From Bradyrhizobium sp. SRL28 (GTDB lineage Bacteria > Pseudomonadota > Alphaproteobacteria > Rhizobiales > Xanthobacteraceae), in contig NZ_JAHEAG010000016.1 in NCBI RefSeq assembly GCF_018596315.1, positions 1 through 64,000 of the forward strand: 64,000 nucleotides of DNA, read 5' to 3'. Under the pieces are notes generated by a model. It was not told the origin of the DNA and did not search any database. It worked only from the letters and a program-made list of their open reading frames with translations. Shown here piece after piece: positions 2,707 to 14,461 of the stretch (positions are counted from its first letter, which is position 1; the number at the start of each line of letters is the position of its first letter). A program made the position numbers and the translations under genes.

Positions 2707-3013
2707 AGGCCATTCTCCATCACTCGATGAACAACCCCCATCGCGTGAACATAGCGACCGATTCGTGGCGGAATCCTGCATCGAAGGAAGCAACGAGAAG
2801 GCGAACGTGTGAATACGAGCGCTGAGATGGCGTCGAGGCGCTTTCACCGGAAGCCGCACTGACCCACGCATTAACCATGCCGGCGCATCAGGCCGCGCGC
2901 GGCCTACGCTTAATGCGCGTTTAACAGTTTTGCATCATTGATCGACATTCCAGCGCAACGTCATTCAAGCCGCAAGAATTGCGGGCCGCACTCAACCTCT
3001 TTTGGAGGATCGA

Positions 3014-3859
3014 TTGAGGACGCTTTTTATTTGCGCGCTGGCTACTACGTTGGTCGGTTGCAGTAGCCAACAATCAGCACAGCCTTCATGCGTTGGCCTG
3101 AATCCATTGGCCTGCCTGACCGCGGTTCATGTGCCGATTGAATCTGCATCATATGACAGCGACTCTGTCAGAGCGAAACCAGTGTCCGACATCGCCTGGC
3201 GCGACGACAGCCCGCCCCGATCGCACGCGGACCACGTCGCCTGTCCGACACCCAAGCCAATCAAGATCGCGGCAAAAGCTGCTACCGTTCCCATACCGAT
3301 TCCTTCTCCGCAAGCGAACCAGCAGACGACGGGCAATGCCGTCGCTTCCCAAGCGCCTCGCGCTTCCCAAGCTGCTCGCGCTTCCGAAGCGCCTCGCGCT
3401 TCCCAAGCGACACGCTCAATTACCGCCGATCCGCAGACAACGACCGACGTTCCGCGGACCCGAACGACGGAGGAGCAGGTGGCGGCCGCCGCTGCGGTCG
3501 CAGAGGGAATGTCTGTCCCGACATTGGATGCGTCGCTGGACGCGCTCGTGGCCGTCCTCGTGGCGGGTCCCGACGTCAAGTCGGTTTCCGACCTGGCCGG
3601 CAAGACAATTGCGATCGACGATAGATATTCCGAGTCGTCTATCAGCCGCGTCAGGACAGCGATGGCGGCGGCGGGCGCGCTCGAAGTCCAACTGAGCAAA
3701 GGTCAAACCACTGCGATCAATCGGCTGATCAGCAAGGAAGTTGCGGCCGCGATCGTCGGGCTAGTCTCTGCCAGCGCCGCGGACAGCTTTCCTGAACTCA
3801 CGCGATTCAGGACCTTTCAAGTCCCGCTCGCAACTCGTTCCCCGAACAAGCAACCGTGA
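3014..3859 (+). CDS. Lipoprotein with TAXI/NMT1-like substrate-binding C-terminal domain
   Basis: A 281-residue exported lipoprotein. The TTG at 3014 is chosen because GGAGG lies 5 bases before it; an in-frame TTG at 3002 lies before that site. The lipobox LVGC puts the lipidated Cys at residue 16. A Ser/Pro/Ala-rich linker follows, containing four 6-residue repeats (bases 3344-3415). The C-terminal part, from about residue 165, carries SDLAGKTIAID, a hallmark of TAXI/NMT1-type periplasmic binding folds. The domain is much shorter than a full binding protein (about 300 residues), so it may be one lobe only. No transporter genes lie beside it. Ligand and role are unknown. Confidence 0.7.
   Translation: MRTLFICALATTLVGCSSQQSAQPSCVGLNPLACLTAVHVPIESASYDSDSVRAKPVSDIAWRDDSPPRSHADHVACPTPKPIKIAAKAATVPIPIPSPQANQQTTGNAVASQAPRASQAARASEAPRASQATRSITADPQTTTDVPRTRTTEEQVAAAAAVAEGMSVPTLDASLDALVAVLVAGPDVKSVSDLAGKTIAIDDRYSESSISRVRTAMAAAGALEVQLSKGQTTAINRLISKEVAAAIVGLVSASAADSFPELTRFRTFQVPLATRSPNKQP
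3344..3415 (+). repeat. Four tandem 18-bp repeats inside the lipoprotein gene
   Basis: Four head-to-tail units of 18 bases (3344-3361, 3362-3379, 3380-3397, 3398-3415) based on GCTTCCCAAGCGCCTCGC, with 1-3 differences per unit. They encode a six-residue Ala-Ser-Gln/Glu-Ala-x-Arg repeat in the linker between the lipid anchor and the binding-like domain. In-frame copy-number change would alter tether length without breaking the gene. Confidence 0.85.
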
Positions 3860-4385
3860 GCGGGTACGGGACGCGTGAGACTCTATGGAGAGAGGATAGG
3901 CGAGGAAACATCTATTTCGCCCGATAACAAGGCTCCGCTGGCGAAGACCTATCAGCTTGCTTCGCTGCCCCCGCTTGCTCAGCTATTTTTACGCACCATC
4001 GCAAGCCGCGAAAACGACATCCCTTCTGCAGCCCTGGCCACCGCCCAGGGACTGTTTACGCTGCAGAGTTTCACCAGCCGCCTTCAGGTCTGGACCTGAT
4101 CAGCGCGACCATTTATGCGCGCTCCCAAATACCGGAGTCGACGAGAACGGCGTGTCCTGCGCAGCAACGTCAGAAAAAACTGAGTGATTTCAAAGATGGA
4201 AATCGTTCCCGCTTCGCCGAGTGCGGCTGCGCATCTTTGAAATCCGAAGAACGTCCACCTCGCCTTTCCTCGGCGTATTTCGATAGTGGAATCGGCTTGC
4301 GGTACTTCCCCGCGCAGCGTAATTTTCAACTACACGTAGTTCATTCGAAAGCAACCTATCGGGTTCGGCCTAGCGGGAGAGAGCG
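3860..4385. other. Gene-free spacer with an inverted repeat
   Basis: I see no convincing coding sequence in these 526 bases. The only short frames lack ribosome binding sites and recognisable content. The notable structure is a perfect 13-bp inverted repeat at 4186-4198 and 4232-4244. Confidence 0.5.
4186..4244. repeat. Perfect 13-bp inverted repeat, 33-base loop
   Basis: GATTTCAAAGATG at 4186-4198 is exactly complementary to CATCTTTGAAATC at 4232-4244. There is no T-run after either arm, so a simple terminator is unlikely. It lies about 140 bases upstream of the DUF1326 gene and could be an RNA hairpin, a paired operator or a small mobile-element remnant. Confidence 0.7.
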
Positions 4386-5015
4386 ATGGCGGACGTCCAA
4401 TGGCACCTTTCCGGTGACTATTTCGAGAATTGCAGTTGCAGCATCGTGTGTCCCTGCCTCGTATCGTCGGCTCCGCCGTTGACCGCGCGACCGACCGAGG
4501 GCTTCTGCAACGTACCGCTGATCTTCCACGTCGACAGCGGCCGCTATGGCGACATCGCGCTCGATGGACTCAATGTCCTGGTTATCCTCCACGCACCTGG
4601 AGTGATGGCAGACGGAGATTGGTCGGTGGCCGCCTATATCGATCAGCGCGCCGACGATGCGCAGACCGAGGCGCTAGCTGCGATCTTCACCGGCGCCGCC
4701 GGTGGTCCGATGGCCGCGTTCACACCGCTGATCACCAAGAACCTCGGGGTGCGCAAGGTCCCGATCACATTCCGAATCGACGGCAAGACGCGGTCCGCGG
4801 AAATCCCGGGCATTCTGCACATGTCCGTCGATCCTTTGCCGACCATGCATCCGAGCGGCGAGATGTGGGCGAACATCGGCCATCCGGTCAGCCCCGACAA
4901 CATGGTGATGGCCGTCGGCGCTCCCGGCAATACGTTTAGCGATCATGGCATGCGCTGGGATAATTCCGGCAAGAACGGCCTCTATGCGCCGATCCGCTGG
5001 TCGAACCAGGCCTGA
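4386..5015 (+). CDS. DUF1326 domain-containing protein
   Basis: A 209-residue soluble protein matching the DUF1326 family over its whole length. Cysteines cluster near the N terminus (NCSCSIVCPCL, residues about 16-26), suggesting metal or redox chemistry. The ATG follows GGGAGAGAGCG. The gene is followed after 52 bases by a DUF2182 membrane protein. DUF1326 and DUF2182 genes commonly occur together, which implies one functional unit at the membrane; the biochemical role is not established. No signal peptide is seen. Confidence 0.85.
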   Translation: MADVQWHLSGDYFENCSCSIVCPCLVSSAPPLTARPTEGFCNVPLIFHVDSGRYGDIALDGLNVLVILHAPGVMADGDWSVAAYIDQRADDAQTEALAAIFTGAAGGPMAAFTPLITKNLGVRKVPITFRIDGKTRSAEIPGILHMSVDPLPTMHPSGEMWANIGHPVSPDNMVMAVGAPGNTFSDHGMRWDNSGKNGLYAPIRWSNQA

Positions 5016-5067
5016 TGCAACTCCTGATACCGGCGCCTTGCGACAAGGCCGGCAACGTCAATCGCAA

Positions 5068-5889
5068 ATGACCGACAGCACCCTGGAAACCGTGCTTCGG
5101 CGCGATCGCTGGATCGTCGGCGGTGCGATCGGCATCATTGTCGCGCTGGCATGGAGCTATGTGCTCTGGCTCGCCAACGACATGGACATGGGCGGCATGG
5201 ACATGACCGGGCTCCGCATGATCCCGGCCGGGATCGGAATCATGTTGCCGGCCAACGAGCCATGGCGAGCGATCGAGTTCGCGTATGTGTTCCTGATGTG
5301 GGCGGTGATGATGGTCGGAATGATGGCGCCCTCGGCAGCGCCCATGATCCTCATGTACGCCCGGGTGGGTCGACAGTGGAAAGCGCAGGGCAAGCCGTTC
5401 GCCGCGACCGGCTGGTTTGCGGCCGGTTATCTCCTCGCCTGGAGCGGCTTTTCGCTGGCAGCCACCTTTCTCCAATGGGTGATCGAGCGGACAGCGTTGC
5501 TGGATTCCCAGATGGCGATCGCCAGCAACCTTCTCGGCGCAATCGTACTGATCGCGGCGGGGGTCTATCAATGGACACCGCTCAAGGACGTTTGTCTCGC
5601 CCAATGCCAGTCGCCGTTTCTGTTCCTGATGCGCCACGGCGGCTTTCAGAACCACCTGCGAGGCTGCCTGCTGCTGGGGCTTCGACACGGAGGCTATTGT
5701 GTCGGCTGCTGCTGGGTTTTGATGGCGCTCTTGTTCGTAGGCGGGGCGATGAACGTGCTTTGGATTGCGCTTTTGGCGCTGCTTGTCCTTTTGGAGAAAC
5801 TTACGCCGGTCGGACGATGGATCGCGCGTGCTGCCGGCATTGCATGTGTGGCCGCGGGCGCTTGGCTGCTGGTGTCCTTGCCGCAGTGA
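5068..5889 (+). CDS. DUF2182 domain-containing integral membrane protein
   Basis: A 273-residue polytopic membrane protein with about 6-7 hydrophobic helices. Characteristic DUF2182 features include a Met-rich segment MWAVMMVGMMAPSA and Cys-containing motifs (CLAQCQSPF and CVGCCW) that could bind a metal. The ATG at 5068 is chosen because the protein then starts with a short charged cytoplasmic segment before the first helix. It partners the preceding DUF1326 gene. Metal-binding capacity is inferred from Met/Cys content only. Confidence 0.85.
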   Translation: MTDSTLETVLRRDRWIVGGAIGIIVALAWSYVLWLANDMDMGGMDMTGLRMIPAGIGIMLPANEPWRAIEFAYVFLMWAVMMVGMMAPSAAPMILMYARVGRQWKAQGKPFAATGWFAAGYLLAWSGFSLAATFLQWVIERTALLDSQMAIASNLLGAIVLIAAGVYQWTPLKDVCLAQCQSPFLFLMRHGGFQNHLRGCLLLGLRHGGYCVGCCWVLMALLFVGGAMNVLWIALLALLVLLEKLTPVGRWIARAAGIACVAAGAWLLVSLPQ

Positions 5890-5985
5890 CGAGCTAGTGG
5901 AAGAGCATTCCAGAATTCGCTGCGGGTAACAACGCGGGAATAGAACGACCGCGAAAACGTTTTTTTGTATCAATGGCTTATGCTT

Positions 5986-6042
5986 TGGTGCGCTCGGAGG
6001 ACGGAGATGATGTTTGCAATTTCAATACGTTATTCAGATGGG
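5986..6042 (+). repeat. Left direct repeat flanking the WGR/reverse-transcriptase cassette
   Basis: 57 bases that match 8406-8462 at 47 positions without gaps. The first 15 bases are identical in both copies (TGGTGCGCTCGGAGG). Read on the minus strand this core ends CCGAGCGCACCA, like the 3' end of a tRNA gene, which is a common integrase target. It may be an old attachment site. Confidence 0.6.
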
Positions 6043-6298
6043 TAAAGACGTTAAGTGCGGTGTGCGGCTATGGGTGCTTTTCGGGCTGGTGCGCCCCACG
6101 GATCGGCTCGCTTGAGTGAGGCGCGCTCGATGTTGGCTTTTCCGCCAATATCGGCGCAATGCAAATCGCCGATGGGCCAACGGCGTCGCCATTCCGCAGC
6201 TTGCAACCTGCAGCATCGCTATATTCCGTTGCACCAACCGCCATTGACGCGGCACGCCCGGCTTGCCATGTTGGCCGCCCGCCATTCCAGAGTCGTCC

Positions 6299-7360
6299 AT
6301 GCAAGTCGTCCGTTCCGTTCGCCTCTGGATGAAGGAGGGCCGTTCAGACAAACTCTATGAAGTCGATCTGGTCGATCTCGAACGCGACGTCGACGCACGC
6401 TATCTCGTCAATTTTAGATATGGCCGTCGCGGCACGTCGCTAAGGGATGGAACGAAGACTTCGTCTCCGGTTACCCGCTCGAACGCCGAAAAGCTGTTTG
6501 ACAGCGTCGTGGTGTCCAAGATCAACGACGGTTATCGCCGCGTCGACGGTGACGCACCACCGCTGACGGTTCTCGACACAGGTGCCGCTGCCGACGGACG
6601 CGACACGGAGCTACTCAAAAAGCTCGCGATCTGTGCGCGTAGTGCGTGGCCCGACAAGGAACGCGACCGCCTGTTCTGGCGCCTCGGCGTGATCCGGCTG
6701 GCCCCTGCCTATCCTCAACTCGCCGCCATCGCAGAGAAGATCGGCGCGGCGAATGCAAGTTACAGCCTCGTGTATGCGCTGGCGCGCTGCGGCCGTGCGA
6801 ACGCCGTCGATCTGCTACGCAGCTGCGCCGACGTCAATGTCAGCTTGGTGCCACGCGACTACGCGGCCTATGCCCTCGCCAGCGAACTGATGGGCGCGCG
6901 GCGACCGCCGCCGCGCCTGTCGTTACCGCGAACCACGGACACTGCGGCGACACGCGACATCGAGATGGCGCTGACGAACGGCGACGGCGCGGGGCTGCTG
7001 CAGGCCTTGCTGGCGGCGAGTTCAGCACATCCGGGCTTCGGCAATCAGTTCCTCATCGCTCTTGCCCACCACGCGCTCGCCGACAGCGCGGCGCGCAAGA
7101 CGCTGCTCGCGGCCGTGCGCGCGATGAGTCCACGCCCGCCCTATGTTCAGGTGCTGCGGCGCCTGTTCAAATATGCCGATCTCACCGACGACGGTCCGCT
7201 GTTCGCTGCAACGGCACGGCAGTTCGAGCTGGCGACCGCGATGTACCGTCGCAGCCGCGTCTATAACGACCGCGTCTGGGTGCCCGGTTCGCGCCAGGCG
7301 CTGAAGCTCAGCGAGGAACTGCGGAGCGAGGCTCCGCGCATCGCGCTGTCCGAAACCTGA
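6299..7360 (+). CDS. WGR-domain protein, C-terminally truncated
   Basis: A 353-residue protein. The first 85 residues form a WGR domain (Val-rich start, then NFRYGRRGTSLRDGT), a module found in PARP enzymes, MolR and stand-alone bacterial proteins and thought to bind nucleic acid. The rest is alpha-helical and repeat-like, resembling HEAT-type arrays. The frame stops at 7358-7360, where recognisable reverse-transcriptase sequence begins in another frame at about 7354. This indicates that a deletion removed the 3' part of this gene and the 5' part of the next. Families of this architecture that I know are much longer. I infer it was the partner protein of the reverse transcriptase and is probably non-functional now. 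Confidence 0.75.
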   Translation: MQVVRSVRLWMKEGRSDKLYEVDLVDLERDVDARYLVNFRYGRRGTSLRDGTKTSSPVTRSNAEKLFDSVVVSKINDGYRRVDGDAPPLTVLDTGAAADGRDTELLKKLAICARSAWPDKERDRLFWRLGVIRLAPAYPQLAAIAEKIGAANASYSLVYALARCGRANAVDLLRSCADVNVSLVPRDYAAYALASELMGARRPPPRLSLPRTTDTAATRDIEMALTNGDGAGLLQALLAASSAHPGFGNQFLIALAHHALADSAARKTLLAAVRAMSPRPPYVQVLRRLFKYADLTDDGPLFAATARQFELATAMYRRSRVYNDRVWVPGSRQALKLSEELRSEAPRIALSET

Positions 7361-8229
7361 TCTGCCGCAGGCTCGATCGACGCCTCATGGGGCTCGCCCG
7401 CACGCTCGGCTTTGTCTATAGCCGCTATGCCGACGATCTGACCTTCTCTTGCTCCGGCGAAGCGGTGAAAAAGATCGGCACCTTGCTCAAGGCCGTGCAC
7501 GGCATTGTCGAGGCCGAAGGGTTCAAGGTCCATCCGGACAAGACGCGCGTGATGCGCAGGTCGACGCGCCAGGAGGTCACCGGGCTCACCGTGAATGAGG
7601 CCGTGACCGTGCCGCGCGACCTGCTGCGCCGTTACCGCGCCGTGCTGCAGCAGGTCGAGCGCCACGGGCCTGATGGCAAGCACTTCGGCCCCGGCAAGGA
7701 CGTGATCCGGTCGCTGCTCGGCTTCGGCCATTTCGCCATGATGGTCGATCCAGGGAGTGGCACGCCCTTGCTGCAGCGAGCGCAGCGCCTCGCCGCGCAG
7801 TACGCGCCCACCCGCTCCGAACGGCACCCGACCCGCGCCGCATTCCGCAAGGCCGCGGCTGCCGGCCAGACGCCGCCCGGCCGGCAATGGAATCCCGCAG
7901 AGCAGCTGCCGCCAGCGCCGGACCCGGTGTTGGTTGCGCTGGCGCGACAGGAAGAAAAGAAGCGGGCCGCACAAGCGCGCGCCGCAACGCCCGGCCTGTC
8001 CCGCCCGCCCAACGTTCCCCCATCGCCATGGGGCACACCGCGCGCTGCCGGCCCGCAGGCGGCTCCCCCGGCGGGAGCAGCGACGGCACCCAAAAAGAGA
8101 CAGCCGTGGTACGTCACGGCGATGGTGATCCTGCTGGCGGTGATGCTCACGCTCGCGCTCAGGCCCGGCGGCGCCGTGGTCGCCGGCGCGATGCTGTTTG
8201 TCTATTTCAGGTGGTTGTGGAAGCGTTGA
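7354..8229 (+). pseudogene. Retron-type reverse transcriptase, C-terminal half with membrane-anchored tail
   Basis: Homology starts without a start codon at NLICRRLDRRL (7354 on). The catalytic box RYADDLTFS follows, then HPDKTRV and the retron-typical VTG triplet in EVTGLTVN. The region after it (LLGFGHFAMMVDP) is also typical of retron enzymes. Everything upstream is missing, including reverse-transcriptase motifs 1-4 with the first catalytic Asp, so it cannot be active. An ATG at 7387 has no ribosome binding site. The C-terminal 140 residues are unusual: a charged segment, a Pro/Ala-rich linker and two hydrophobic helices ending in FRWLWKR, suggesting membrane anchoring. No retron RNA (msr-msd) could be recognised; it may have gone with the deletion. 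Confidence 0.8.
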
Positions 8230-8405
8230 AGCAGCGTCCGATCCGGGCCGATTCCAATTAGAGAAAGATCAACGAACCCGGAACGCTCAAAAGGGCTGTT
8301 CCACGGACAAAATTACGCGCCCCTGGACAGGATGCATCGCCAAATTTCGTTGTGAAATGACTGCATCGGATTGCATCGAAATCCAAGAAATATCAACGAT
8401 TTCGG

Positions 8406-8462
8406 TGGTGCGCTCGGAGGGCGGAGAAGATGTTAGCAACTTCAATAACTTGCAGAGATGGG
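8406..8462 (+). repeat. Right direct repeat flanking the WGR/reverse-transcriptase cassette
   Basis: Second copy of the 57-base sequence at 5986-6042, in the same orientation and 47/57 identical. The copies are 2420 bases apart and bracket exactly the WGR and reverse-transcriptase genes, as expected for attachment sites of an integrated element or for a duplication. Confidence 0.6.
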
Positions 8463-8520
8463 CAGAGCCCGGGGTGCATTTCGCGCCTATAGGTACTCTT
8501 CAAGCCCAGCCTGGGCTGAA

Positions 8521-8658
8521 CTAGGTCGGCAGCTCCGCAAGCCACATGGCGTCGAGCCCCACTGCTCGGCGGCGTCGACTAGCGCGAGGGATTGCGAAGG
8601 CTCCTGCTTCGCTCGTGTCCTGAGATTTCTGAAACTTATGGAGCAAACCAAATTCCAT
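8521..8658 (-). pseudogene. Luciferase-like (LLM) flavin monooxygenase, N-terminal remnant
   Basis: From an ATG at 8658, preceded by GGAG, the frame reads MEFGLLHKFQKS and later GLDAMWLAEL, both typical of the first beta strands of LLM-class flavin-dependent oxidoreductases. Between them the expected VDAAEQWG appears only in a neighbouring frame, so at least two compensating frameshifts are present. A TAG at 8521-8523 ends it after 45 codons; a complete member has about 340 residues. It adjoins the right direct repeat and is plainly decayed. Confidence 0.5.
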
Positions 8659-8662
8659 CGCT

Positions 8663-9483
8663 CCCTTCCACCGGTCGTCTTTTTTGACACCGATGGTAAC
8701 GGGCGCCGGAACAGATGGAAACGCCTGTCAGGGCTTGGTTTCGTGATACTCAGCCCCAAAATAGCTTGCGGCGTATACGACGGAGAAAACTCCAGCCTGA
8801 GGCTGACGAGAAAGCGCTGGGTCACCGGCATAGTTGGATCGAGCGGGTGTAGCGCTCCGACCCAAATAGCTTATGTCTCAGGCAAATCTTCATATTGGAC
8901 GTTTCATTCGACACTCCTTCGCAGCTCAACTTGGCTCGTGTGTCACTCAGAACCCGTTTCCGCCTCTATGGAATCCCGTGAAGTATTGGCGGTAGCGCCT
9001 GTATGAGCAACACAGCGCTTCCGCCCAACATGCTGGCACCCACGACAAGCAGGGACAGGGCGCGCTCCCAACACGTCTCGTTGCTGGCGACGTCATTCGA
9101 ATTTGGCATCTGCAAATACCCGCCTTTTCGTGCGATGAGGTGTCTTAGGCTGAGTCGCGAGCTCCCCGAGCGACGAAATTTGCCGAAAAATTAACTTATG
9201 ATTCACCGACTCGGGCGCCCTGCCCGATTAATCTCGGTGTCGGTTTGGACCATGTACGGTTCGCTTTTGATCCAGCGTCCCACATGGACGTGATCGAGCA
9301 ACAGATGGAGAGGATCAGAACAGATCCCGTAAAGCGATGGTCGGACACTGGACGCGAAGCGGACCACGTTTACGCAACCAGTTGCTTCCGTTTGTGGCCC
9401 CTTTGAAACATGCCGACGGACTCCGAGAATGTCTGCTCATCGAGGTAGACCGGAAGTGATCGGCGGAGGGCCAAACCGGTGTT
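8663..9483. other. Decayed accessory DNA without a recognisable gene
   Basis: Several frames of 60-180 codons exist here but none has a ribosome binding site plus a recognisable domain. GC is lower than in flanking genes, as in other decayed stretches of the window. Bases about 9350-9480 resemble a dispersed intergenic sequence I associate with rhizobial genomes, which I cannot verify here. Confidence 0.4.
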
Positions 9484-9708
9484 GGCAGATATTGTCGCAA
9501 AAGTCGAAATCGAGCGACCCGGAAAATCTCACGAAAGTTGATCTTTGGACTTCTCCGCCGCTGTGTTGCTTTTCAACGCTACTACGGAGATCCCTGGTCG
9601 ATTTTGGATGAAACGATATGGTCCCTCACGTCGCCGCTCGTAAAACGCATCAGCGGCTCTAAAAAATTTCGTACGTCTCCCAAAAAGACTTTTGCAACAA
9701 TATCCGCC
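9484..9708. mobile_element. 225-bp MITE-like element with 22-bp terminal inverted repeats
   Basis: The left end GGCAGATATTGTCGCAAAAGTC (9484-9505) and the complement of the right end (9687-9708) agree at 20 of 22 positions. There is no transposase inside. The first 62 bases are nearly identical to the complement of 46210-46274, so the sequence is dispersed. This fits a non-autonomous derivative of an insertion sequence. No target duplication was identified. Confidence 0.55.
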
Positions 9709-9850
9709 AAAAGCGGTCTTCAGGCAGTCGCACTGTAGGAGCAGCAGGATCCGGGCCTGCGATCCCTGCGCTGATCAAAAATCTCATACTTGCGCTGGGC
9801 GATTCAATGGCTGGCCTTAGATCCCGGCGAAGCCCGCACAAATGAATGAT

Positions 9851-12188: not shown

Positions 12189-13731
12189 CCGCTCTGCGCC
12201 GATTGTGTTGAAGAAGTCTGCGGGGCAACTGTTTGGGGACGTTGGCAGGAAACAGGGCGTGCGTGAGTTTGTTTGCTCTCAGGCCGGCATCGGGGCGGGC
12301 AGCGGGATCAGCTTTGCCAGCTTTCGGAGGTTCTGGACGGTGGCAGCGAGGAGGAACTCGTCTTGAGCACCAAACGGACCTCTCAGCCTGAGTCGGTCGA
12401 GGCGCAGAATGCGCTTGAGATGTGCGAACAGCATCTCGATCTTCTTCCGTTCACGCCGCGACGTCACGTAGGCCTCTGTCTTGGCGATATCGCGCGCGAC
12501 GTCTCGGGCGTTCTCGTAAATTGAACGCGGGACCTTGCGGGCGGGCATCTTCGGGCAACAACGCGACTTGAGTTCGCAGGCATCGCAGTCATATTTGCTG
12601 GCGCGATAGAGCAGTGTTGCCCCATCGTTCACCAGAGTTCCGGTAGAGGTCAGCGCCTTGCCGGCTGGACAGACGTAAAGATCGGCTTCCTGATTGTGGG
12701 CGAAGTCTTCCCGCGAGAACGTCCCATCGTCGCGGGCCGACTTGTCGAACACCGGAATGTGCGGCTCGATCGCGCGCTCGTTGACCAGCCACCCCTGCAT
12801 CTCGGCTGAGCCGTAAGCACTGTCGGCGGCCAGACGCTCGGGACAGAGCCCGAGGCAATCTTCGGTCCGTTCAATCATTGTGCGTGCCGCACCGACCTCG
12901 GCCTGCCGGATAGCTCGCGTCGCCTCAACATCGACGATAATCGCCGCCTTCAGGTCGATCAGGTAGTTGTCGGCGTAGGCAAAGAAGGCATGCCCTTTGT
13001 GAGCGCCGGTCCATTGGGCGGCCGGATCCGACCTGGAGATGAAATTCGGTACCGTCTCGCTGGCTGCGCCCCAGGCAGCCTCATCCAGGGTATCGAGATA
13101 TTCCCGGACGGATCGGCGCGTCCTCGCAACGGCCTTCCAGTCGACATCATCAGATCCGGCAGCAGAGCGCTGCTTGTTGGCATCGGCAGCAATCAGGCTG
13201 GCATCGACAGCAAAGGCCGTACCATCAACCAGCCTCTCTGCCATGCAGCGTCGGACCACGGTCTCGAACAGCTTGCGCAACAGATCGCAATCGCGGAAGC
13301 GGCCATGCCTATTCTTGGAGAAGGTCGAGTGGTCCGGCACCTCGCCATCGAGGCCGAGTCGGCAGAACCAGCGGTAGGCGAGGTTCAGGTGTACCTCCTC
13401 GCACAACCGCCGTTCGGAGCGAATGCCGTAGCAGTAGCCAACCAGCAACATCCGAACCAGCAGTTCGGGATCAATCGAAGGCCGGCCGGTCGAGCTATAA
13501 AAAGGCGCCAGATGGCCCCGAACCTCTGACAAATCGACAAAGCGATCAATCGACCTCAGCAAGTGGCCCGCCGGAACATGTCGCTCAAGTGAGAACTCGT
13601 AAAACAGTGCCGCCGGTTCGACCTGCCGAGGACCCATCATCGATTCAAATCTCCATCCGGTAAGAGGAATGAATCAGTGATCTCCTTCGGCTTCAACAGT
13701 CGAGTTTTTCAACACAATCCGCCAATAGCGG
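12189..13731 (-). mobile_element. IS1182-family insertion sequence
   Basis: The element carries one transposase gene and imperfect terminal inverted repeats. The left end has CCGCT...GATTGTGTTGAAGAAGTC (from 12189); the complement of the right end has CCGCT...GATTGTGTTGAAAAACTC (to 13731). Ends are accurate to a few bases; no target-site duplication was fixed. It lies between the sugar-acid kinase and a broken recombinase gene. Confidence 0.7.
12279..13640 (-). CDS. IS1182 family transposase
   Basis: A 453-residue, apparently full-length DDE transposase. The N-terminal domain has the family pattern RPSIDPELLVRMLLVGYCYG, and the catalytic core includes FAVDASLIAADANK and RLAADSAYGS. A Cys-rich insertion (CDACELKSRCCP) precedes the final KKIEMLFAHLKRILRL block containing the catalytic Glu. 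No frameshift or stop is present, so the element may be active. It is transcribed toward the sugar-acid kinase gene and could add or block transcription there. Confidence 0.92.
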   Translation of the reverse strand: MMGPRQVEPAALFYEFSLERHVPAGHLLRSIDRFVDLSEVRGHLAPFYSSTGRPSIDPELLVRMLLVGYCYGIRSERRLCEEVHLNLAYRWFCRLGLDGEVPDHSTFSKNRHGRFRDCDLLRKLFETVVRRCMAERLVDGTAFAVDASLIAADANKQRSAAGSDDVDWKAVARTRRSVREYLDTLDEAAWGAASETVPNFISRSDPAAQWTGAHKGHAFFAYADNYLIDLKAAIIVDVEATRAIRQAEVGAARTMIERTEDCLGLCPERLAADSAYGSAEMQGWLVNERAIEPHIPVFDKSARDDGTFSREDFAHNQEADLYVCPAGKALTSTGTLVNDGATLLYRASKYDCDACELKSRCCPKMPARKVPRSIYENARDVARDIAKTEAYVTSRRERKKIEMLFAHLKRILRLDRLRLRGPFGAQDEFLLAATVQNLRKLAKLIPLPAPMPA

Positions 13732-13835
13732 TCCGTCAAGAATGGTCACTCGATAGAGATCAGGACGTACTTTATCGCTATCATGTTACGCTCGCCACTG
13801 AGCGACGCGGCGGGCGGGTTGGCGGAGGATCCGCC

Positions 13836-14461
13836 ATGCTTGTTCGCCCTGTCGGCCTGGACCATTCACGACCTTGGAATAAGGGATTGCTCGTCGGCCA
13901 GAAAAAGCCCCTCCAACCCAAACACGTTTGGTCCATTCGCGTTCGGCTCGAGATCGCACGCATGTGGCGCGACCTTGCACTCTTTAATTTGGCGATAGAT
14001 AGCAAACTTCGCGCCTGCGATTTAGTCAAACTTCGTGTCGACGAAGTATGTTCGGGTACGAGGATCCGGGATCGAGCGACAGTCGTTCAAAAGAAAACGG
14101 GCCGACCAGTGCAATTCGAAATTACGGATCAGACGAAGGCCTCCCTTGAAGTTTGGTTACGAACCCTCCGAGCGACCGGCACTCGATATCTCTTTCCAAG
14201 CCGACTTCATGCACGCCCTCACCTATCCACCCGACAATATGCCCGGCTGGTGCATCGCTGGGTTGATAGCATCGTTTGGAAACAATCTTCTATGGTACCC
14301 ATTCGATGCGGCGGACGAAGGTCACTCAAATCTATCGCAAGACCGGCAACCTTCGTGCTGTCCAGCTCCTCCTCGGCCATACAAAGCTGGAGAGCACCGT
14401 CCGTTATCTCGGGATTGAAGTAGACGATGCTCTACACATCGCCGAGCAGATCGAGCTCTAG
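13836..14461 (+). pseudogene. Tyrosine recombinase/integrase, frameshifted
   Basis: Starts at an ATG 7 bases after GGAGG. The first frame carries RPWNKGLLVGQKKPL, then LAIDSKLRACDLVKL with the first catalytic Arg, and VQKKTGRPVQFE. At about 14273 one base is missing and homology moves to the next frame: YGTHSMRRTK (His-x-x-Arg), GHTKLESTVRYLG (His and the nucleophilic Tyr) to the stop at 14461. All catalytic residues are present across the two frames, so the frameshift is the only visible defect. About 209 codons, as expected for this short rhizobial integrase family. It sits beside the IS1182 copy. Confidence 0.85.

Follow-up and report, generated by a model that had tools for sequence, protein, structure and literature searches.

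A truncated type XIII retron in Bradyrhizobium sp. SRL28 and the predicted clamp-fold partner of its intact relatives

Retron type XIII is an already catalogued group of candidate phage-defence systems. PADLOC-DB 2.0.0 contains the models WGR_XIII, SWIM_XIII, HEAT-ARM_XIII, and RT_XIII, and the genes run in the order WGR-HEAT protein, SWIM-finger protein, an msr-msd RNA of ~350 nt, and reverse transcriptase (RT). In the literature we searched, the type is only named, among PADLOC matches, in the accessible part of one paper; the available part of PMC12548924 does not mention it, and publications on WGR, SWIM, MoxR, and HEAT proteins and on retron censuses carry nothing on it in their titles and the beginnings of their abstracts. 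We found no phage-defence test of type XIII in the openly accessible literature searched, and no mechanism for it in the literature searched. A comparable system is found in type IX retrons (e.g., Kva2), for which the accessible part of PMC13405049 reports an operon with two partners, one of them a winged-helix protein, in a higher-order complex with RT and msDNA. Type IX retrons have a HEPN RNase (same source, same part), whereas the type XIII partner proteins revealed no credible enzyme domain.

Here we describe a locus in a 64,000-nt stretch of the Bradyrhizobium sp. SRL28 genome (the window). Its two open stubs match the WGR and RT models of type XIII, and 20 relatives carry an msr-msd-like RNA; the window copy departs from the described type in having neither SWIM gene nor RNA and in retaining only part of the WGR and RT genes. 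It is a real but dead member of an already catalogued retron type, and its value lies in the intact family to which it leads.

Two stubs and a deletion junction

The WGR frame runs from an ATG at 6299 to a TGA at 7358-7360 and matches WGR_XIII of PADLOC with an E value of 8.2e-79 (profile positions 1-305 of 973); from 7354 onwards, in a different frame, the sequence matches RT_XIII (E 2.2e-56, profile positions 284-445 of 469). Pfam recovers a WGR domain below threshold and the end of RVT_1. Compared with four copies from the genus, the WGR stub shares 86-94% protein identity and the RT stub 81-94%, and both frames are open, with no further stop (Table 1). The original prediction let the WGR frame close at 7360, exactly where RT sequence begins without a start codon. 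The change of frame stands, while the join itself lies a few bases earlier, at 7353|7354, and 7360 is only the end of a chance stop codon read after it; the RT sequence does resume at 7354 without a start, but an in-frame ATG, the first start codon of this frame, follows at 7387. The RT part had also been said to keep YADD and the VTG triplet and to lack the earlier motifs, and this is what we see: NAxxH and everything else before YADD is missing, and in the relatives these parts lie upstream of the join.

A profile search with SWIM_XIII gave no match in the window or elsewhere in the strain's genome, and the best blastn match in the window to the RNA region of an intact locus (L018) had an E value of 0.59. 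Three other RT_XIII matches in the genome score 24-40 bits, compared with 191 for the stub, so that no second RT there scores like RT_XIII. The window copy thus has the RT of a type XIII retron (C-terminal part only) and its WGR/HEAT protein (first third only), but neither the SWIM partner nor the msr-msd RNA; since these two are absent, we regard it as a relic and not as a working member.

Table 1. Features of the relic locus and its surroundings (positions in the window).
Feature	Position	Strand	Remark
Two-gene unit, DUF1326 + PpoB2	4386..5889	+	Left of D1a; a look-alike (by eye) is D1-bounded in G054
D1a direct repeat	5986..6094	+	Left boundary of the retron unit
WGR/HEAT gene remnant	6299..7353	+	~352 of ~1052 codons from the 5′ end, covering the WGR domain and the first HEAT repeats
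Deletion junction	7353..7354	.	14 undeleted loci have a further 5,065-5,113 bp at this point
Retron RT gene remnant	7354..8229	+	C-terminal 291 codons
YADD catalytic motif codons	7426..7437	+	In the RT stub
VTG retron motif codons	7576..7584	+	In the RT stub
C-terminal hydrophobic hairpin of the RT, putative membrane anchor	8107..8226	+	Hydropathy only
D1b, second copy of the direct repeat	8406..8512	+	Right boundary of the retron unit

Comparison at the DNA level with undeleted loci of the genus explains this arrangement. In all 14 loci that are readable on both sides, the two flanks align up to 7353 and from 7354, and the missing 5.1 kb lies between these points; both stubs end exactly at the join, which bears out the proposal of a retron-like system broken by a deletion, and the WGR gene, three times as long in its intact form, does not normally end here. 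What was lost is the SWIM gene and the msr-msd RNA in full, together with the 3′ two thirds of the WGR/HEAT gene and the 5′ half of the RT gene. One genome, G161, aligns collinearly with window positions 4938-8240 at ~90-93% identity, and gaps occur only near the left repeat and at the missing segment. Side-by-side reading revealed no microhomology at the join, and on this ground a repeat-mediated deletion was rejected. Divergence from the nearest copy (G218) is low, with dS of 0.07 for the WGR and 0.15 for the RT portion, so the deletion is probably recent; no second genome with the same deletion was found among 100 scanned with WGR_XIII. The dN/dS of the WGR stub against other copies is 0.13-0.20 (0.16-0.31 among the other copies), and that of the RT stub is 0.19-0.34 (0.16-0.39 among the others). 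Because neither lies above the range of the other copies, no decay is visible beyond the deletion itself, and visible decay of the stubs was dropped as a proof of death.

We conclude that the window very probably holds a dead type XIII retron copy, made by a single deletion of ~5.1 kb that left two open stubs, and the copy is almost certainly dead. It is very unlikely that the draft assembly joined two distant reads and that the strain has an intact retron: the genome is indeed a draft of 262 contigs, and contigs of the related genomes G001, G024, and G189 end inside the type XIII cluster, so that this cluster may be hard to assemble, but the join offers no shared repeat for an assembler to slip on, and neither SWIM_XIII nor a second RT of RT_XIII grade turns up elsewhere in the assembly. 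That the WGR stub and the RT stub (from the ATG at 7387) still act together, for example as a membrane-anchored decoy, is hardly credible, for although both frames are open, dN/dS is no higher than among other copies, and the RT stub retains its hydrophobic hairpin, the RT has lost everything before YADD, the RNA and the SWIM gene are gone, the closeness of the nearest copy (G218, at the dS values above) perhaps left too little time for decay, and the deletion is seen in none of the other genomes scanned.

Intact type XIII clusters and their RNA

Full-length SWIM_XIII is encoded in 17 of 265 genomes of the genus, with two further marginal matches (E 4e-4), and all 17 loci have the order WGR-SWIM-RT; these 17 include three loci cut by contig ends (G001, G024, and G189) and one with broken frames (G123). 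For example, in the intact locus of G044 the WGR, SWIM, and RT proteins match the PADLOC models over nearly their full length, and the SWIM gene has 556 codons. The WGR and SWIM genes of L017 overlap by 4 bp; the gap between SWIM and RT genes measures 343-403 nt in 20 loci. The original prediction had expected intact relatives to carry a WGR-protein/RT pair, and a deletion that joined two adjacent genes. The two proteins do belong to one gene cluster, but they are neither neighbours nor a pair: the SWIM gene and the RNA-bearing gap lie between them, and a WGR/RT pair with no third gene was therefore rejected.

SWIM_XIII was strong in three and marginal in one of 398 genomes sampled across the phylum. 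Among genomes of named species, 410 stretches encode a relative, and we kept the best 80 of these as named loci. By name, the organisms of the best 80 are Bacteroidota, Campylobacterota, cyanobacteria, and others; a WGR gene was found in 77 of the 80 loci and an RT gene in 70, and some of the remaining loci are short contigs. Of 68 RT genes, 54 lie behind SWIM and 14 in front of it. NAxxH and VTG are hallmarks of retron RTs, and the strings NAxxH, VTG, and [YF][AVI]DD are all present, at any position, in each of the 70 RTs. The SWIM protein is the most conserved of the three (in G442, for example, identity is 71% for SWIM, 64% for RT, and 41% for WGR). Another type XIII cluster, in G123 (L056) and in Bradyrhizobium embrapense (L142), has broken WGR and RT frames, and L145 has an interrupted WGR frame; with both frames broken in G123, decay is not unique to the window.

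The 20 intergenic sequences between SWIM and RT (those of the 17 genus loci plus G442, G332, and G494) co-fold into a structured RNA in which a 17-bp a1/a2 helix is accompanied by an msr-type hairpin and a long msd stem. Of 88 predicted pairs, 33 show changes on both sides. In the controlled count, 31 of 76 pairs change on both sides, compared with a mean of 6.6 in shuffles and 5-12 in slid controls, and none of 500 shuffles reaches the observed values; the alignment used here also supplied the structure, a bias in its favour, although the margin is large. A conserved msr-msd RNA, suggested earlier as something to look for upstream of intact RT genes, is thus present, and covaries. Rfam at gathering thresholds reported only a tRNA in two intact loci.

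Flanking tRNA-Leu(GAG) repeats

The stubs are flanked by a 62-bp direct repeat (starting at 5986 and 8406; 81% identity between the copies), part of an element of ~108 bp that we call D1. The first 15 bp of D1 are the reverse complement of the 3′ end of tRNA-Leu(GAG), with 15/15 bp matching at both ends in the window. Using a model built from 24 copies, including the window's two, we found the element in 130 of 265 genus genomes (E ≤0.001), sometimes as several co-oriented copies on one contig; further copies lie at G000:C68:73604-73705 and in L120, L127, and L217-L219. In the units we looked at, co-oriented copies sometimes bound segments of 2-8 kb with differing cargo, while in the strain's own genome the next D1 spacing is 65 kb. 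Among the 14 undeleted loci, the exact core occurs 150-229 bp behind the RT stop in eight, and in four it is the tRNA itself; an upstream core (at most two mismatches) is found 165-430 bp before WGR in three, and neither core is found within 1.5 kb in four (L017, L047, L052, and L058). With up to three mismatches allowed, the 15-bp core has eight matches in the window against 4.93 expected, which is no more than chance, so only the two exact copies count. The strain's own tRNA-Leu(GAG) lies on another contig, which counts against a simple account in which the window unit sits beside the tRNA.

The smallest retron unit seen is that of G300, where the retron alone occupies the ~7.4 kb between a D1 element and the tRNA. 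In their direct repeats, their 15-bp core identical to the 3′ end of tRNA-Leu(GAG), and their occasional position next to the tRNA, these units resemble tRNA-targeted integrative islands; they differ in that the retron takes up the whole of the G300 unit, which leaves no space between the unit's ends for an integrase of its own. In G054, a row of three units runs up to the tRNA, and one of them contains (judged by eye) a look-alike of the DUF1326/PpoB2 gene pair seen left of the retron unit in the window, and the PpoB2 end of the window's pair is syntenic with the retron of G161. When the left flank of the G300 unit was used to search for an empty site, 38 of 265 genomes had matches. Among 30 flank loci, the D1 element follows straight after the flank in three (G300 itself, G054, and G281), the tRNA lies directly behind the flank in none (15 of the 30 were scanned with ARAGORN), and the search yielded no clean empty site. 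Taken together, the repeat units hint at how such clusters spread in Bradyrhizobium.

Several neighbouring features were seen in passing. A third 15-bp core with one mismatch lies in the same orientation at 2018-2032, possibly a worn boundary or a chance match; near the right repeat there are a transposase (12279-13640) and a phage-integrase-like ORF that scores below threshold (13677-14423). Elsewhere, L218 (G120, from 7411) and L219 (G179, 2880-9824) apparently contain the same D1-bounded unit of 6.9 kb, as a tandem duplicate in G120 and singly in G179; its sameness was judged from spacing, ORF lengths, and the first 50 residues, and its cargo, judged from the sequences, is a LysR-like regulator and three efflux-like genes.

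Predicted proteins and a proposed mechanism for the intact system

In the predicted structure of the WGR protein (pLDDT 87.9), a long HEAT solenoid carries the WGR domain, and the matches listed in a fold search with this model include HEAT-repeat-type proteins of many functions.

The RTs of the named loci vary at their C-termini. After leaving out two of the 70 RTs that are cut by contig ends, we find a strongly hydrophobic segment in the tails of 33 of 68, defined by a 17-residue hydropathy of at least 1.9 (the maxima are 1.75 in RT cores and 1.64 in SWIM proteins). These segments, identified by hydropathy only, look by eye like one or two helices, and 30 of the 33 RTs are alphaproteobacterial by organism name (the exceptions are L169, L182, and L186). 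Three of the remaining 35 have tails shorter than eight residues and were dropped; in the other 32, tryptophan makes up 50 of 384 residues in the last 12 positions and 13 of 1,484 elsewhere in the tail; it occurs within the last eight residues of 22 of the 32. The tips follow a variable linker (e.g., DWWSIW, PWWKFW, and NNILDMFRK). According to the accessible part of PMC2988020, the T4 proteins gp43, gp55, and gp33 bind the clamp gp45 through short hydrophobic and acidic C-termini, and many RT tips look alike to these; we take this likeness as a resemblance and not as a test.

In the intact system, the hydrophobic tail could also be an effector that disrupts membranes and is held inactive by the clamp-fold and WGR proteins, and not an anchor. 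The known retron effectors include transmembrane proteins (PMC13405049, accessible part), and strongly hydrophobic tails occur in nearly half of the RTs with a readable tail; the 35 RTs that have none, most of the usable ones ending in tryptophan-bearing tips instead, count against this reading, since an effector should not be optional, and we consider it unlikely.

The SWIM protein was modelled with AlphaFold2 from 39 family members (mean pLDDT 71.7). Within residues 231-360, 11 of 13 ten-residue blocks have pLDDT values of 78-96, and the first half, with the first clamp domain, is lower. Each of the 50 matches listed by Foldseek in the PDB is a PCNA-type clamp or a complex that includes one, and the TM-scores are modest (mostly 0.5-0.67 by target length, among the matches listed); in a viral library, 27 of the 50 matches listed bear the name of a clamp or processivity factor, and the names of the others are uninformative. 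Alignment of the model with a clamp by VIA-align gave a Z score of 15.2 and an rmsd of 3.1 over 218 residues, covering model residues 34-365. The model also has a coiled coil inserted at about residues 68-131 and, beyond the clamp part, a winged helix and a SWIM finger.

These additions set the SWIM protein apart from DNA sliding clamps (PCNA and T4 gp45), with which it shares the two-domain clamp fold as a prediction; it also shows no sequence relation to them in our searches. PCNA was not among the 25 Pfam families listed for the SWIM proteins, hmmsearch gave no relation of the family to PCNA, hhalign against a PCNA profile of only two sequences returned a probability of 0.2%, and a viral_contigs scan with yeast PCNA gave no relative. 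The inner helices of sliding clamps are basic and line the DNA channel. In the SWIM model, the four channel helices (assigned by order and not by superposition) have K+R contents per residue of 0.08, 0.02, 0.13, and 0.44, compared with 0.133 in the whole protein; three of the four are thus non-basic, and the SWIM protein may not encircle DNA.

The SWIM protein might instead be an ordinary DNA-binding regulator, with a winged helix and a zinc finger, whose likeness to a clamp is an accident of prediction. Pfam reports SWIM in 38 of 39 family members along with weak winged-helix matches, and the failure of the profile searches to reach PCNA fits this reading as well. Against it, the clamp match extends over most of the model (34-365), tops two libraries, and has a high Z score (15.2), and the protein is the best conserved of the three, so we think such an accident improbable. 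The SWIM protein is therefore best described as having a predicted two-domain clamp fold, which is based on one model and stands apart from any sequence match, and we do not claim a working clamp. A clamp-like partner of type XIII retrons appears unreported in our non-exhaustive literature search, in which titles and the beginnings of abstracts disclosed no relevant paper linking a retron with PCNA or a sliding clamp; PCNAs in bacterial genomes have been reported before, in the accessible part of PMC8357120 with no connection to retrons.

For the intact copies, we tentatively propose the following mechanism, which we hold to be plausible rather than probable. The RT would use the msd part of the RNA as the template for msDNA, to which it would remain bound. 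The SWIM protein (with its predicted clamp fold, winged helix, and zinc finger) and the WGR/HEAT protein, as a predicted scaffold, would dock on this RNA-DNA-RT particle, with the clamp-fold part serving as a hub that holds the RT tail. The particle might then monitor phage replication or DNA damage, and disturbance of the msDNA or of the clamp contact could trigger action at the membrane or on DNA, through the tail and the DNA-binding parts. Assembly into one particle, contact of the RT tail with the clamp or the membrane, and a role in phage defence are what we infer for this system; the type IX complex with two partners (PMC13405049, accessible part) makes a similar assembly reasonable for type XIII. 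A more specific version, speculative and at best possible, would have the SWIM protein act as a dedicated hub or decoy clamp, to which the RT is tethered by its tail in the way that T4 polymerase is held by gp45; competition for this clamp from phage polymerases, clamp loaders, or late-transcription factors would then signal replication, and in Bradyrhizobium the whole set would move as an integrase-free unit bounded by tRNA-Leu(GAG) repeats.

The relic alone shows only that one strain has lost a defence-type retron. The wider meaning lies in the intact family: type XIII is widespread, it combines a predicted clamp-fold partner with RTs whose tails resemble clamp-binding peptides or are putative membrane anchors, and it would be, to our knowledge, the first case of a retron RT with a clamp of its own. 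The predicted clamp fold and the tail types make the mechanism of type XIII retrons directly testable.
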